DNA of 11,966 nt from Acetobacteraceae bacterium (lineage in GTDB: Bacteria; Pseudomonadota; Alphaproteobacteria; Acetobacterales; Acetobacteraceae), in contig DAHWNE010000249.1 in assembly GCA_027340195.1 (NCBI GenBank), positions 1 to 11,966 of the forward strand, given 5' to 3'. Below are positions 3,148-9,927 of this stretch, one piece after another. Below the pieces are notes generated by a model. It had not been told where the DNA came from and searched no databases. It saw only the letters and a program-made list of their open reading frames with translations. A program made the position numbers and the translations under genes. The first letter of the stretch is position 1. Every line of letters begins with the position of its first letter.

Positions 3148-3209
3148 GTCAATCCTCCCTCACGGTTGCGCGAGGTCGCGGGACGGCGCCTCGCGGTGCC
3201 GTTGCATAT

Positions 3210-3225
3210 GGGAAGGAGTCTTCCC
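3210..3225 (-). terminator. Hairpin downstream of the toxin gene (weak terminator candidate)
   Basis: GGGAAG and CTTCCC form a 6-bp stem over a 4-base loop, about 22 bases past the TAG stop of the PIN gene on the minus strand. A partly overlapping alternative pairing runs over 3218-3235. There is no T-run. It lies in the 100-bp spacer before the DUF2189 gene, which must also hold that gene's promoter if it is not cotranscribed. Nothing else is visible in this spacer. Confidence 0.3.
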
Positions 3226-3247
3226 GGGGAAAGACCTGGGGGAAGGG

Positions 3248-3685
3248 CTACCAGATCCGGGCGATGCCCCGGCCGGAGAAGGCGGCGTCGCCGGAGACCA
3301 GCGCGAGCCCGAGTGCCGCGGCCTGGGCCAGCAGCATCCGGTCGAACGGGTCCCGATGCGCCCAGTCCAACGCGCCGGCCGTTCGCGCCTCCGCCGGGGT
3401 GATCGGCAGCGCCGCGAAGCGGGAGCGGCGGAGCAGGTCGTCGAACTGGTCGAGCACGACCGTCGCTTCCGGCCATTTGCCGAGCCGATGCTTGGTGGCG
3501 AGCTCCCACGCCGAGGCAGCGGACACATGCGCGACCCGTGCAGGGTCGGCGATGGCGGCGCGGGCCGGCGGGGTCAGGCGCGGGTCGTCGGTCCACCACC
3601 AGATCAGCGCATGAGTGTCCAGTAGCAGGCCGGCCGGGGGACCGCCGGTCGGAACCTCAGCGGGACCGGCGGCGATTACTCCCAC
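3248..3685 (-). CDS. PIN-domain toxin, VapC-like ribonuclease of a type II toxin-antitoxin pair
   Basis: The 145-residue product is a single PIN domain, a metal-dependent RNase fold used by toxins that cleave tRNA, rRNA or mRNA. The characteristic acidic residues are present: Asp23 in LLLDTHALIWWW, Glu61 in AASAWELATK, Asp112/Asp115 in HRDPFDRMLLAQA and Asp133 in SGDAAF. The frame stays open far upstream, but that region overlaps the antitoxin gene in another frame. The chosen start is GTG at 3685-3683, the only plausible non-CTG start shortly before the PIN core. It overlaps the last 10 bases of the antitoxin gene, which suggests translational coupling. The initiator is weak, with no clear Shine-Dalgarno, and about 18 residues precede the usual PIN start, so a non-standard start closer to LLLDTHA is possible. 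All key residues are intact, so the toxin is probably functional. Confidence 0.82.
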   Translation of the reverse strand: MGVIAAGPAEVPTGGPPAGLLLDTHALIWWWTDDPRLTPPARAAIADPARVAHVSAASAWELATKHRLGKWPEATVVLDQFDDLLRRSRFAALPITPAEARTAGALDWAHRDPFDRMLLAQAAALGLALVSGDAAFSGRGIARIW

Positions 3686-3903
3686 AGCGCGACGTCGTCC
3701 GGATCGAGCGGAGCGAAGGCGGCATCCGGCACGGCGAGCCCGCGCAGCAAGCCGGGCGTGCGCGGGGCCGGGGTGGAGAGCGGCATCAGCCGGGCCAGCG
3801 GTGTGCCGGCGCGGGCGATCAGGATCTCCTCCCCGGCGGCGGCGCGGTCCACCAGACGGGAGAGCTGGGTTTTGGCGTCGTAGATGTTCACGGTCTGGGT
3901 CAT
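3676..3903 (-). CDS. Phd/YefM-family antitoxin
   Basis: This small 75-residue protein has the Phd/YefM N-terminal DNA-binding fold: MTQTVNIYDAKTQLSRLVDR, followed by AAAGEEILIARAGTPLARLMPL. Such antitoxins dimerise, bind an operator through the N-terminal half and neutralise the toxin with a C-terminal tail, here the acidic, hydrophobic AAFAPLDPDDVALWE. Upstream open sequence in the same frame is rejected because the canonical family N-terminus begins at the ATG at 3903. The stop TAA (3678-3676) lies inside the start of the PIN toxin gene, the usual antitoxin-toxin order with overlap. No strong Shine-Dalgarno is visible. A palindrome about 58 bp upstream (3961-3980) is a candidate operator for autoregulation. 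Antitoxin identity is well supported; the cognate relation to the PIN gene is inferred from overlap. Confidence 0.88.
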   Translation of the reverse strand: MTQTVNIYDAKTQLSRLVDRAAAGEEILIARAGTPLARLMPLSTPAPRTPGLLRGLAVPDAAFAPLDPDDVALWE

Positions 3904-3960
3904 GGCACGGAAACGGTTGGCGAAAGGTGAACGGAGCGGACAAAATCCAACATCCCATAA

Positions 3961-6741: not shown

Positions 6742-7482
6742 TCAGGCCGCCGCCAGCGCGCCGATCCGCGGGCTCTGACGCGCCGCCGCCGGCGCCGGCT
6801 CGGCCGGGGCCGAAGGTTCGGAAAGCTTGTAGCCGCAGCCCCACACGTTCTGCACTAGGGTCGGCAGCCCAGCCGCCGACAGCTTCTTGCGCAACCGGCA
6901 GACGATCACGTCCACCGTCTTGGGCTCGGGCTCCTCCTCGGCGCCATACAGATGATTGAGGCAGGCGCCCTTGGACAGCGACACGCCGCGCTTCAGCATC
7001 AGCAGTTCCAGCAGCGAGTACTCCTTCGGCGTCAGATGCAGCGCGCGGCCGCCGACCGTCACTTCCCGGCTGTCCAGGCACAGCTGCAACGGCCCGGCGG
7101 TCAGCACCGATTTCGCGTGCCCGGCCGAGCGGCGGATCACCGCGCGCAGCCGCGCCAGCACCTCGTCGATGGCGCAGAACGCATCCAGCACGTCGTCGGC
7201 GCCGAGATCGAGCGCCTTCACCCGCGGCCCCGGTTCCGGCCCATCGGCGACAGCGAGGATCGGGCTATGGCAGCCGGCGGCGCGGATGCGGCGGATGAGA
7301 TCGTGGCCCGACATGTCGCGCAGGTTGAGATCGAGCAGCAACGCGTCGAACCGATAGAGGCGCAGGAACTCCATGGCCTCGGCGCCGGTCCCGGCGTATT
7401 CGCGGTTCACCCCTCGCCGCCGCAGTTCCTGCAGGTCATCGACCCGGCGCAATGGCTTTGTTCCGACTTGCAGAATAAGCAT
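6742..7482 (-). CDS. CtrA-like OmpR-family response regulator with a degenerate receiver
   Basis: The 246-residue protein aligns from end to end, by eye, with CtrA, the alphaproteobacterial cell-cycle transcription factor. The receiver (about 1-120) keeps Asp51 in LLLDLNLRDMSGHD and CtrA-like RAVIRRSAGHAKSVL. The acidic pair normally near 7-9 is replaced by GTK, the Thr/Ser switch by Ala79 and the conserved Lys by Ala101 (ADDVLDAF instead of ADDYMTKPF). The winged-helix output domain (about 125-222) is well kept: LHLTPKEYSLLELL, CLNHLYGAEEEPEPKTVDVIVCRLRKKL and VWGCGYKL. An Ala/Pro-rich tail follows. The ATG at 7482 has GGGGGAT upstream. It is divergent from the Tad genes and precedes the transglycosylase. 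Identity as an OmpR/CtrA-type regulator is firm; phosphorylation-independent action and a paralogue rather than ctrA itself are inferences. Confidence 0.92.
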   Translation of the reverse strand: MLILQVGTKPLRRVDDLQELRRRGVNREYAGTGAEAMEFLRLYRFDALLLDLNLRDMSGHDLIRRIRAAGCHSPILAVADGPEPGPRVKALDLGADDVLDAFCAIDEVLARLRAVIRRSAGHAKSVLTAGPLQLCLDSREVTVGGRALHLTPKEYSLLELLMLKRGVSLSKGACLNHLYGAEEEPEPKTVDVIVCRLRKKLSAAGLPTLVQNVWGCGYKLSEPSAPAEPAPAAARQSPRIGALAAA

Positions 7483-7513: not shown

Positions 7514-7533
7514 AACCATCAACGAATGGTTAA
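7514..7533. promoter_or_regulatory. Candidate CtrA-type binding site in the divergent spacer
   Basis: ATGGTTAA at 7526-7533 is the exact reverse complement of TTAACCAT, an 8-base motif known from CtrA-regulated promoters of Caulobacter. AACCAT at 7514-7519 is an inverted partial copy separated by six bases, so the two form a 6-bp inverted repeat. The site lies 32-51 bases upstream of the regulator start (-). On the plus strand AATAAT at 7552-7557 lies 18 bases beyond it, the geometry of a site overlapping a -35 region. This would give the Tad operon a leader of a little over 100 bases. The sequence match is direct; binding and promoter activity are inferred. Confidence 0.5.
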
Positions 7534-7590: not shown

Positions 7591-7604
7591 ATGGCCTAGG
7601 CCAT
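7591..7604. promoter_or_regulatory. Perfect 14-bp palindrome upstream of the Tad operon
   Basis: ATGGCCTAGGCCAT reads the same on both strands. It sits among further GGCC repeats: ATGGCC at 7580-7585 and TTGGCC at 7605-7610. It is in the 5' leader or promoter zone about 75 bp before the TadG-like start. It is a possible operator or recognition site for a dimeric protein; no known family of sites is recognised. Confidence 0.4.
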
Positions 7605-7679
7605 TTGGCCGAATGGTCCGATCGCGGGGGATGTGCTTGCTTTCCGGCTCACGAGCGCGTGAACGCCGTCCCTCCGCGG

Positions 7680-9098
7680 ATGTTGACCCGGATGTCCCTG
7701 TTTCAACTTCGCTTTTTTCCGTCTCGGCGGGGTGCCGTGGCGCTGATGGCGGCACTCGCGGCGCCCGCCCTGCTTGCCGCCTCGGCGGTGGGGATCGAGG
7801 TCGCCAACTGGTCGGCCTGGCAGGTCGAGACCCAGCGTATCGCCGATCTCTCTGCCCTTGCGGCCGGACAATCCTATGCGTCCGGCGCGACCGTCGAGGA
7901 GGCCGCGAATGCGGGGGCCACGATCGCCGAGGATAACGGTGCCGTGGGTGCGTCCACGCGCAGTTGGAACGCCTCCAGCCAGGTGCTTTCGGACGGCTCC
8001 GTCACCGTGGCCTATGTCAGCGGGGTCCGCAGCAGCAGCGATCCGGCGTTCCGGGTGACCGTCACCACATCCGTTCCGCTGACGATCGCGCGGCTCATCA
8101 CCACCGCCAGCGATGAGGCCATCACCGCCTCGGCGACCGGCGAGGTGGAATCGCTGCAAGCCTGGGGTGGCCCGCAGCCTTGTGTTGCGGCGCTCAAGAC
8201 CGCCGCTCAGGGGGGCACGGGCCTCACCTATACCGGCTGGACCACGATGGAGGCGTATGGCTGCTCGATCCGCTCCAACGCCGGCATCGACGAGACCGGC
8301 AGCGGCGGATGGAATACGCAGGGGATTTATGCGGCCGGGTCGATCTCGATCCCGAACTGGGTGTCAGATGTGAACAACGCCGGGCAGACCGTCACCCCGA
8401 TCGCGAACGACGGCACGATCCCCGATCCGTATGCGAACAACGCGGCGGTCAAAGCGGCCTTCACCGCCGCGGCGAACTCGACCGGGAGCTCCATCGCCTG
8501 TTCCAATCAGAACTGCGGCCTGCCGAGTGGCGCCGGCAACGGGACCTACAACGGCAGCTACTGCGTGGGCCAGGGGACCGGCTCGGTCAGCTGCACACTC
8601 GAGCCCGGAAGCTACGGGAGCTTCAACGTGACCTCCGGCGGGCCATACTATTTCACGCTCGAGCCCGGGATGTACTACTTCAAGGGCAACATCAACCTGA
8701 CCAACTACACGGTGACCAACGGTAGCGCGGTTACCATCGTCACCGCCGGCACCTTCACCGGGGCCAACACGTTCGACTTCACCCTTACCGCCCCCGATCC
8801 CGCGCAGGCGGCCAGCACCGGGGGCATCGCGGGGCTCGCGCTGGCCGGGAATACCACCGGCAAGATCAGTGTTTCAGGCAATCCGCAGGTCTCCATCACC
8901 GGGGTGATGTATTTCCCGAACGCCACCTTCTCGGGGGCCGGGTCCACCACCGCGAGTTCCTCCTCCTGCTTCGAGATCCTCGCCGGGTCGATCAGCCTGT
9001 CCGGAGATTCCGGCTATTCCGGCACCTGCCCGCAGTTGGGGGCGACCCCGTTCGGCAGCACCTATTCCTCCTCGTCGCTGACGGCGCTGGTGCAATGA
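7680..9098 (+). CDS. TadG-like protein with a secreted beta-solenoid-like C-terminus
   Basis: The 472-residue protein begins with a TadG-type N-terminus: basic FFPSRRGAVALMAALAAPALLAASAVGIEV (12-41), then NWSAWQVETQRIADLSALAA, the usual membrane anchor and following helix of Tad pilus-assembly TadG-like proteins. The rest should be extracytoplasmic and is rich in Gly, Ser, Thr and Asn. Residues about 300-430 contain short beta-strand-like repeats, such as LEPGSYGSF and LEPGMYYF twenty residues apart, common in TadG C-termini. Eight cysteines (168, 194, 274, 279, 295, 305, 430, 450) allow disulfides. The start is uncertain: ATG 7680 or ATG 7692, neither with a clear Shine-Dalgarno; a TTG at 7605 is rejected because the extra residues are unlike the family. 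The stop overlaps the next gene by ATGA. It probably anchors or assists a pilus-like structure; a function as surface protein is the alternative. Confidence 0.83.
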   Translation: MLTRMSLFQLRFFPSRRGAVALMAALAAPALLAASAVGIEVANWSAWQVETQRIADLSALAAGQSYASGATVEEAANAGATIAEDNGAVGASTRSWNASSQVLSDGSVTVAYVSGVRSSSDPAFRVTVTTSVPLTIARLITTASDEAITASATGEVESLQAWGGPQPCVAALKTAAQGGTGLTYTGWTTMEAYGCSIRSNAGIDETGSGGWNTQGIYAAGSISIPNWVSDVNNAGQTVTPIANDGTIPDPYANNAAVKAAFTAAANSTGSSIACSNQNCGLPSGAGNGTYNGSYCVGQGTGSVSCTLEPGSYGSFNVTSGGPYYFTLEPGMYYFKGNINLTNYTVTNGSAVTIVTAGTFTGANTFDFTLTAPDPAQAASTGGIAGLALAGNTTGKISVSGNPQVSITGVMYFPNATFSGAGSTTASSSSCFEILAGSISLSGDSGYSGTCPQLGATPFGSTYSSSSLTALVQ

Positions 9099-9532
9099 AC
9101 GGGCGTCGGGGCATCGCGGCGGTGGAGTTCGCGCTGGTCACCCCTGTGCTGCTGGTGCTGCTGGTGGCGGGGGCGGATATCGCGTTTCGCATCTGGGCGC
9201 GCGGCGCGTTGGTGGACGCGGTGGCGCAGGGGGCGATGTATGCGTTCCTGACCGGCCCCACGGTCACCGCGGGCGCGGTCTCGAGCTTCGTCGAACAGGC
9301 GGCGGGCATCCCCGGGGTCAGCGCGAGCGTCTCCGGCCCGTCGAGCGGATGCGCGGTGCCCGGATCGACCACCCTCACCGCCGCGAATTCCAGCGGCACC
9401 TGCGCCGACGGCACCAAGCCCGGCGTCTTCCTGACCATCACCGCCAGCGCCACCGCGTTTTCCCTCGACACCGGGATCTGGAGCGAACCGGGGCTCAGCG
9501 TGTCCGATCAGGCCATGGTGAGGCTGCAATGA
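9095..9532 (+). CDS. TadE-like pseudopilin (first)
   Basis: The 145-residue protein has the TadE-type class III prepilin start RRGIAAVEFALVTPVLLVLL. Gly6 is the likely cleavage point and Glu11 is at +5, matching the G/XXXXEF pattern cut by the Tad prepilin peptidase. One hydrophobic helix (about 12-32) is followed by a periplasmic domain with two cysteines (86 and 103), suitable for a disulfide. Start and stop overlap the neighbouring genes by ATGA on both sides, so the three genes are tightly coupled. In Tad systems TadE and TadF are minor pseudopilins needed for pilus assembly. Which of the two this represents cannot be told from sequence alone. Confidence 0.88.
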   Translation: MNGRRGIAAVEFALVTPVLLVLLVAGADIAFRIWARGALVDAVAQGAMYAFLTGPTVTAGAVSSFVEQAAGIPGVSASVSGPSSGCAVPGSTTLTAANSSGTCADGTKPGVFLTITASATAFSLDTGIWSEPGLSVSDQAMVRLQ

Positions 9533-9927
9533 TCCTGACCCGGCTCCGCCGCGCCCGTCGCGGCGAGACCGCCCTGGAGTTCGCCATCGTCGGCGCGCTG
9601 TTCGTGCTGCTGCTGCTGGCGCCGGTGGAAGGGGGGCTGATGGTCTGGACCGCCAGCGCCTTGCAGGTGGCGGCAACCGAAACGGCGCGCTGCGCCGGCA
9701 TCGGATCCTGCTCCAACCCGCAGGCCTTCGCGGCGAATGTGGCGAACACCTGGATCGGCCCGAGCGCCGTCTCCACCGCCAACGTGACGGTGGCCAACAC
9801 GACGACCTGCAACAAGGCCTCCGGGAATTTCGTGACGGTCACCATCACCGCCTCGATCTGGTCGGGGGCGATGCTGTCGCCGCTGTTCGTGCCCAGCCAG
9901 AAGGCGAGTGCCTGCTTCCCGCTGTAA
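9529..9927 (+). CDS. TadE/TadF-like pseudopilin (second)
   Basis: The 132-residue protein carries the same processing pattern, RRGETALEFAIVGALFVLLL, with cleavage predicted after Gly12 and Glu17 at +5. The hydrophobic helix spans about 16-37. The periplasmic part has four cysteines (55, 61, 94, 129). The start at ATG 9529 overlaps the preceding stop by ATGA and has GTGAGG six bases upstream; a longer frame open to 9349 lies inside the previous gene and is rejected. It is the last gene of the operon, ending 9 bp from a convergent stop at 9937 without a visible terminator. It is paralogous in style to the preceding gene and both probably enter the same pilus-like assembly. Confidence 0.88.
   Translation: MILTRLRRARRGETALEFAIVGALFVLLLLAPVEGGLMVWTASALQVAATETARCAGIGSCSNPQAFAANVANTWIGPSAVSTANVTVANTTTCNKASGNFVTVTITASIWSGAMLSPLFVPSQKASACFPL

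Follow-up and report, generated by a model that had tools for sequence, protein, structure and literature searches.

CtrA is the textbook example of a cell-cycle regulator controlled by phosphorylation. In Caulobacter, it drives pilA and cpaA, and CtrA-type boxes near TTAA-N7-TTAA are found at pilus genes (PMC11264516, in excerpt). Among atypical OmpR/PhoB regulators, ChxR, HP1043 and GlnR are reported to form dimers without phosphate, and in GlnR and RamR the Asp serves dimer formation (PMC12632262, in excerpt). Among the matches listed from the open-licence literature, in titles and abstract openings, no description of a Tad-linked CtrA paralogue was found, and a term search of PMC2877005 returned no mention of Acetobacter, Gluconobacter, paralogues or duplication.

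The protein considered here, hereafter psi-CtrA, is a CtrA-type regulator of 246 residues with a pseudo-receiver, encoded at positions 6742..7482 of the minus strand in a window of 11,966 nucleotides, which is the whole stretch analysed (Acetobacteraceae bacterium, GenBank assembly GCA_027340195.1, contig DAHWNE010000249.1). Like canonical CtrA (NF045991), it displays the same two-domain layout and has NF045991 as its best curated model. Unlike canonical CtrA, it lacks the acidic pocket and the Lys, carries three diagnostic changes in the recognition helix, lies in a Tad neighbourhood, is co-resident with a canonical CtrA in congeners and scores under 350 bits with NF045991. With ChxR, HP1043, CosR and GlnR, it shares the domain layout and a degenerate receiver, but it differs from them by its CtrA descent and its Tad linkage, and no special kinship is apparent, since PmrA tops the Foldseek list. 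The CtrA-type protein and the CtrA-type boxes at pilus genes recall the control of pilA and cpaA in Caulobacter, where, however, the global CtrA itself acts, whereas psi-CtrA is a separate paralogue located in or beside the pilus genes.

Domain organisation and family assignment

Both Pfam domains expected of an OmpR/PhoB response regulator, PF00072 and PF00486, score above their cut-offs in psi-CtrA. The receiver half (residues 1-119; 7126..7482, minus strand) gives a weak but significant match of 45.4 bits to Response_reg PF00072 (cut-off 30.2), to be compared with 96.4 bits for the canonical CtrA of a congener. The DNA-binding half (residues 126-222; 6817..7107, minus strand) is a normal winged helix, with 72.9 bits for Trans_reg_C PF00486. 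In the AlphaFold2 model, built from a 34-row alignment (mean pLDDT 87.3, pTM 0.64), the receiver is predicted to form a complete (beta-alpha)5 fold, followed by the winged helix. A Foldseek search placed an ordinary PmrA at the top, and CosR, GlnR and HP1043 lower among many OmpR/PhoB structures. The top NCBIfam model is CtrA NF045991, at 207.7 bits, which is below the 350-bit cut-off and leaves psi-CtrA outside the canonical CtrA equivalog by score. L010 and L015 reach 208.7 and 229.4 bits, respectively, and full-length canonical CtrA of the same genus (L051) scores 364.4 bits; the canonical sequences L047 and L016, which are without their first residues, score 328.1 and 336.5 bits.

Orthologues in the genus and co-resident canonical CtrA

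The source MAG comprises 2.24 Mb in 450 contigs and is 66% complete. An orthologue of psi-CtrA is present in all five congeners (71, 74, 78, 81 and 94% identity). Pairwise dN/dS values within the genus range from 0.08 to 0.32 for the receiver and from 0.01 to 0.20 for the DNA-binding half; both halves are therefore under purifying selection. Together with the intact frames in congeners, this rules out a pseudogene, a decaying gene or a chance ORF.

A preliminary description of this DNA had proposed a CtrA paralogue, with the reservation that a genome holding no second, canonical ctrA would make the window gene the main copy, merely diverged. Canonical CtrA is encoded by a separate gene in all five congeners, with 48-50% identity to the window protein, and the reservation is thereby lifted for the genus, where a diverged main copy can be rejected; the proposed paralogy is supported. 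The pocket of the congeners' canonical CtrA contains the usual residues, except in the closest sister species, G005, whose copy (L048:820-1431) has Glu51 despite the presence of ChpT. In the source MAG, at 66% completeness, a second CtrA was not found, the next matches being other OmpR-type regulators with 28-33% identity. A comparison of the MAG with an 8-kb stretch of G005 that surrounds its canonical ctrA gave, among the 40 of 775 candidates that were scored, nothing beyond scattered short hits and the window gene (66%). Apparently the assembly lacks this region, which makes the lack of a second ctrA in the MAG uninformative.

The same co-residence extends beyond the genus, as all 13 other clade A genomes examined (G001-G005, G012, G024, G080, G082, G138, G183, G206 and G225; the clades are defined below) also encode a canonical-lineage CtrA. 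Position 8 (T or N) and position 101 (R) are altered in those of G082 and G206. ChpT (PF10090) scores above its cut-off in the five congeners, barely so in G002 (25.3 vs 22.9 bits), and in 11 of the 13 clade A genomes searched, the exceptions being G082 and G206.

Two deviant clades of CtrA-like proteins in Acetobacteraceae

Searching 200 Acetobacteraceae genomes, among them the MAG, with the window protein gave matches at E <= 1e-36 in at least 175, and more than one such match in at least 32. From selected loci, rather than from all matches, 139 proteins were taken; L236, which resembles another OmpR-type regulator, was left out, giving a tree of 138 rows. In this tree, the window protein belongs to a 16-row clade, here named A (SH-aLRT 97), which amounts to 15 distinct proteins because L089 is identical to L167. 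A second deviant clade, B, contains 11 proteins, and the A+B grouping has an SH-aLRT of 88. A quick tree of 73 rows, from which columns 8, 9, 51, 79 and 101 were removed, gave values of 96 for A, 100 for B and 99 for A+B. One protein, L233, joins A when A is included alone (98) and B when B is included alone (84), and A, B and L233 form one clade at 95 after removal of the recognition helix. In view of the long branches in this grouping, a single origin of A and B is likely but not proven. In the quick trees, the genus's five canonical copies cluster among canonical CtrA and the window protein falls in clade A instead, which leaves a recent duplication inside the genus unsupported.

Eleven further deviant CtrA-like copies fall outside A and B (L056, L226, L229, L230, L227, L054, L060, L063, L225, L234 and L237). 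Several of them lack Asp51, and only L056 has Tad/SLT genes nearby in the flanks available. L087, which belongs to clade A and has SLT beside it, is located on a contig labelled Nitrosovibrio, a betaproteobacterium; this is perhaps misbinned Acetobacteraceae DNA.

Variation at position 51 is also encountered in canonical CtrA of the family. In CtrA, the D51E substitution is a laboratory phosphomimetic. Glu51 is the natural residue in 16 Acetobacteraceae genomes (L021, L036, L058, L181, L238, L240, L241, L243-L250 and L252), where, among the matches listed, this protein is the only CtrA-like one at E <= 1e-36. ChpT (PF10090) is above cut-off in none of these 16 genomes, with weak sub-cut-off matches in G014 and G218, and is present in 21 of the 23 family genomes with Asp51 that were compared, in G022 only within kinase-length frames. 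Three genomes whose CtrA belongs to the same clade as the Glu51 copies and has Asp51 (G035, G088 and G210) also show no ChpT. The combination of Glu51 and missing ChpT suggests that the phosphorelay has been replaced by a fixed state. Among Rhodospirillales genomes, ctrA, gcrA and ccrM occur in 72-82%, and chpT, cckA and divL in only 27-36% (PMC8116508, in excerpt), a scarcity that agrees with loosened control in the order.

Receiver pocket and dimer face

Residues were counted in 15 clade A, 11 clade B and 95 canonical-like rows, eight of the latter from other families, with 18 other rows excluded. In the window protein, G7, T8 and K9 replace the acidic cluster, and Ala occupies positions 79 and 101; Asp51 is retained (codon at 7330..7332, minus strand). 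All these residues had been reported correctly in the preliminary description. Four of the five active-site positions (DD, D, T, K) are altered, as in the pseudo-receivers defined in PMC12632262, and of the phosphorylatable receiver of canonical CtrA, Asp51 is there but the acidic residues, the Ser/Thr and the Lys are absent. The earlier reading as a pseudo-receiver is supported by the changes in both the window protein and clade A. It had been added that Asp51 had lost every partner residue; this holds for the window species only. The six orthologues of the genus all have G-T/P-K at positions 7-9, retain D51 and have lost K101, but Ala79 is found in the window protein only, Thr79 being retained in all five congeners and Thr/Ser79 in 11 of the 15 clade A proteins.

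The pattern differs between the clades. Position 7 is Glu in 89 of the 95 canonical-like proteins and Gly in all 15 of clade A. Position 9 is acidic in 90/95 canonical-like proteins and in 8/11 of clade B, and in none of clade A (Lys in nine, Arg in one, other residues in five). At position 51, the canonical-like set has 78 Asp and 17 Glu; Asp is found there in 14/15 of clade A and 5/11 of clade B. Ser/Thr at position 79 is invariant in the canonical-like proteins (95/95), with a single case among the 11 of clade B, and Lys/Arg at position 101 occurs in 95/95 canonical-like proteins and in no member of either deviant clade. Further, position 98, aromatic in canonical CtrA, is Val in 14 of the 15 clade A proteins. 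The share of the canonical consensus retained in the pocket is 0.21 for clade A and 0.18 for clade B; it is 1.00 for both in the beta5 GADD (GADD in 15/15 of clade A) and 0.76 and 0.85, respectively, in alpha5. For alpha4 it is only 0.45 in clade A and 0.05 in clade B, and conservation of the dimer face is thus incomplete. As judged from these alignments, the switch is lost; the general DNA-binding frame and a large part of the dimer face are kept.

As psi-CtrA lacks the Lys and the acidic residues that bind the metal, normal phosphotransfer would not be expected of it, although residual phosphorylation fits too with Asp51 and Thr/Ser79 being mostly retained. Pseudo-receivers generally retain the D and the K in about 65% of cases and Thr/Ser in 65-70%, with a non-acidic DD2 in about 80% (PMC12632262, in excerpt). 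By these rates, the residue pattern of psi-CtrA is ordinary when taken alone, and the retention of Asp51 says little by itself. What is unusual about psi-CtrA is its descent from CtrA and its Tad linkage, not the pocket pattern.

DNA-binding half

Recognition-helix residues I189, F193 and K196, which, by analogy with PhoB, probably contact bases, are invariant in the 95 canonical-like proteins and altered in all 26 proteins of clades A and B. Clade A has T/A, I/V/L and R at these positions, and clade B S/T, L and R; the helix reads KTVDVIVCRLRKKL in psi-CtrA and mostly KIIDVFICKLRKKL in canonical copies. Clade A retains 0.63 of the canonical consensus over the DNA-binding half and 0.71 over the recognition helix. 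The preliminary description had concluded that this CtrA paralogue with a pseudo-receiver may still read CtrA-like sites and compete with CtrA. The first part of that interpretation stands, and the second is weakened by the alteration of positions 189, 193 and 196 in 15/15 of clade A. The C-terminal Ala-Ala, a possible proteolysis tag from Caulobacter work, is present in 4/15 of clade A, 0/11 of clade B and 52/95 canonical-like proteins.

Tad/Flp and SLT neighbourhood

The main correlate of psi-CtrA, which the preliminary description did not mention, is the adjoining Tad pilus genes. A TadG-like protein is encoded divergently at 7680..9098 on the plus strand, ATG 7680 or 7692 being likelier starts than TTG 7605; the TadG domain PF13400 stays under its cut-off for both the window and L072, and exceeds it in the relative L228. 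It is followed on the plus strand by two TadE-like minor pilins with PF07811, at 9095..9532 and at 9529..9927, the second inside ORF 9349-9927. Adjoining psi-CtrA downstream is an SLT-type lytic transglycosylase (PF01464; 5984..6727, minus strand, start approximate). Elsewhere in the window, at 3160-3958 on the minus strand, ORFs resemble by eye a VapC-type toxin and its antitoxin.

Across genera, the gene is found in or beside Tad/Flp genes. Among the 14 clade A loci searched, the window being excluded, TadG/TadE genes adjoin nine, SLT ten and either of them 13. For clade B, Tad or pilin genes adjoin 6/11 loci, and Tad/pilin or SLT genes 7/11. Tad or SLT genes adjoin none of 37 canonical ctrA loci, in flanks of mostly about 1.5-4 kb compared with up to 20 kb for some clade A loci. 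Of 16 other deviant loci, two have Tad/SLT genes, L233 close by and L056 at 2-4 kb. In the flanks searched, Tad genes were not found beside 5/14 clade A and 5/11 clade B loci; the 14 kb of G024 searched contain none, and 12.7 kb of G183 (L089), queried by tblastn with the Tad proteins of the window, gave no match, SLT being the sole neighbour there. Neither Tad nor SLT genes were seen at the clade A locus L165 and the clade B loci L212, L220, L221 and L223.

The most complete picture of the arrangement is given by G012, with the order cpaB, prepilin peptidase, Flp pilin, SLT, psi-CtrA, divergent tadG, tadE and tadE; Pfam supports CpaB, the prepilin peptidase and TadE, the SLT and TadG domains being barely sub-cut-off. 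At four clade B loci (L061, L204, L224 and L228), the regulator has tandem short pilin-like genes on one side and tadG on the other. The Flp pilin domain (Flp_Fap) scores above cut-off in L072 and L204, and below it in L228 (barely) and L219. RcpC/CpaB is encoded 2-7 kb from psi-CtrA in four of 13 clade A genomes (G012, G082, G206 and G225), as well as from the clade B gene of G009, and on another contig in the nine remaining clade A genomes, the five congeners included; it was not found in the 66% complete source MAG. G017 and G029, two genomes with no known member of A or B, likewise contain RcpC, and Tad pili therefore do not require psi-CtrA.

The divergent promoter

The region between psi-CtrA and tadG contains a CtrA-type box, TTAACCATTCGTTGA (TTAA-N7-TTGA), at 7519..7533 on the minus strand, 37-51 bp upstream of the psi-CtrA start. 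It differs by one change from TTAA-N7-TTAA and is, against an expectation of 0.02, the sole TTAA-N7-TTNA site of the window. The half-site TTAACCAT occurs once in the window, in the psi-CtrA promoter (0.04 expected). A conserved dyad, CGGCCAAATGGCCTAGGCC in minus-strand reading, at 7593..7611, represents a candidate operator. Box and dyad both recur in the divergent promoter of the six genus members.

Boxes with at most one mismatch, within 200 bp upstream, were counted against expectations from mononucleotide shuffles. They precede 7/15 clade A genes vs 0.48 expected, namely those of G012 and the six genus members, whose boxes reflect shared ancestry and are not all in one aligned column. The corresponding figures are 2/11 vs 0.28 for clade B, 0/14 vs 1.2 for other deviants, 23/91 vs 10.5 for the remaining family rows and 8/8 vs 1.5 for other families. 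The exact TTAA-N7-TTAA is absent from both strands of the MAG (2 and 2 in the reversed control), which limits statements about CtrA itself too. As for the dyad, with at most one mismatch it is found upstream of 8/15 clade A and 2/11 clade B genes and of none of 14 other deviant or 99 remaining genes; since the six genus members served to define the pattern, only L015, L087, L061 and L219 are independent cases. Over 40 whole genomes, it was no commoner than the reversed control.

Proposed function of psi-CtrA

Paralogy, pocket loss, selection, neighbourhood and promoter motifs are established at the level of sequence; from them we infer the phosphate-independent dimers, the DNA target and the direction of control. 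We lean, with slightly better than even confidence, towards psi-CtrA being a pseudo-receiver regulator of the local Tad/Flp genes that dimerises without phosphate and descends from an old CtrA duplicate that some of the Acetobacteraceae have retained. With Tad neighbours, lost phosphate control and a changed recognition helix, a local pilus regulator acting as a phosphate-free dimer is the simplest reading. The ancient duplicate would have been retained for this local role, its receiver no longer engaging in normal phosphotransfer. As much of the dimer face (beta5, alpha5) is kept, psi-CtrA would probably form dimers without phosphate, as reported for ChxR, HP1043 and GlnR. Asp51 may be kept for structure or dimer contacts, and the Lys/Arg at the second acidic position, 9, in 10/15 of clade A, could pair with it. 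The activity of such a protein would be set by its amount, its synthesis being the control point; the promoter common to psi-CtrA and tadG has a CtrA-type box, and canonical CtrA or psi-CtrA itself would then control psi-CtrA synthesis, psi-CtrA presumably acting on this same promoter.

Competition with canonical CtrA at ordinary CtrA promoters, or its replacement there, might be envisaged from the 48-50% identity to the congeners' canonical proteins, the share of consensus retained in the DNA-binding half (0.63) and recognition helix (0.71), and the TTAACCAT half-site in psi-CtrA's own promoter. The box there makes a link with CtrA plausible, at least as much as target or partner as in the role of competitor. 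However, residues 189, 193 and 196 are altered in 15/15 of clade A and 11/11 of clade B, Tad/SLT genes adjoin 13/14 clade A loci and there is no exact TTAA-N7-TTAA in the MAG of about 2.2 Mb, all of which make such a function unlikely; a local regulator of Tad genes is likelier than a stand-in for CtrA and is the most likely role of psi-CtrA.

It is rather improbable that psi-CtrA works as a poor response regulator, phosphorylated slowly by ChpT or a small phosphodonor through Asp51 and Thr/Ser79. These residues are present in 14/15 and 11/15 of clade A, respectively, ChpT is above cut-off in 5/5 congeners and 11/13 clade A genomes, and phosphorylation may survive substitutions of DD, T or K (PMC12632262, in excerpt). 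Set against this are the metal-binding position 9, acidic in 0/15 and basic in 10/15, the loss of Lys101 in 15/15, Ala79 in the window protein and the fact that, according to the same excerpted source, pseudo-receivers keep the Asp in about 65% of cases anyway. As for heterodimers with canonical CtrA, in which psi-CtrA would be a modulator or a dominant-negative partner, beta5 GADD in 15/15, the retention of most of the conserved alpha5 residues and a canonical-lineage CtrA in 13/13 other clade A genomes point in this direction, but alpha4 has diverged (0.45 kept) and, since a CtrA-like gene occurs in at least 175 of the 200 family genomes, co-occurrence is expected anyway; we regard this arrangement as very unlikely.

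The local regulator that we favour can be extended, tentatively and with considerable doubt, to a dedicated Tad pilus switch independent of phosphorylation, in which the ancient CtrA duplicate would have its own operator, the dyad, and a CtrA-controlled promoter, the cell-cycle phosphorelay acting on these pilus genes, in part of the Acetobacteraceae, via the level of the pseudo-receiver protein. If true, this CtrA-derived lineage would illustrate the splitting of a global regulator into a local one. The psi-CtrA lineage may also serve as a natural series of proteins for what pseudo-receivers still do, and notably for why Asp51 stays.
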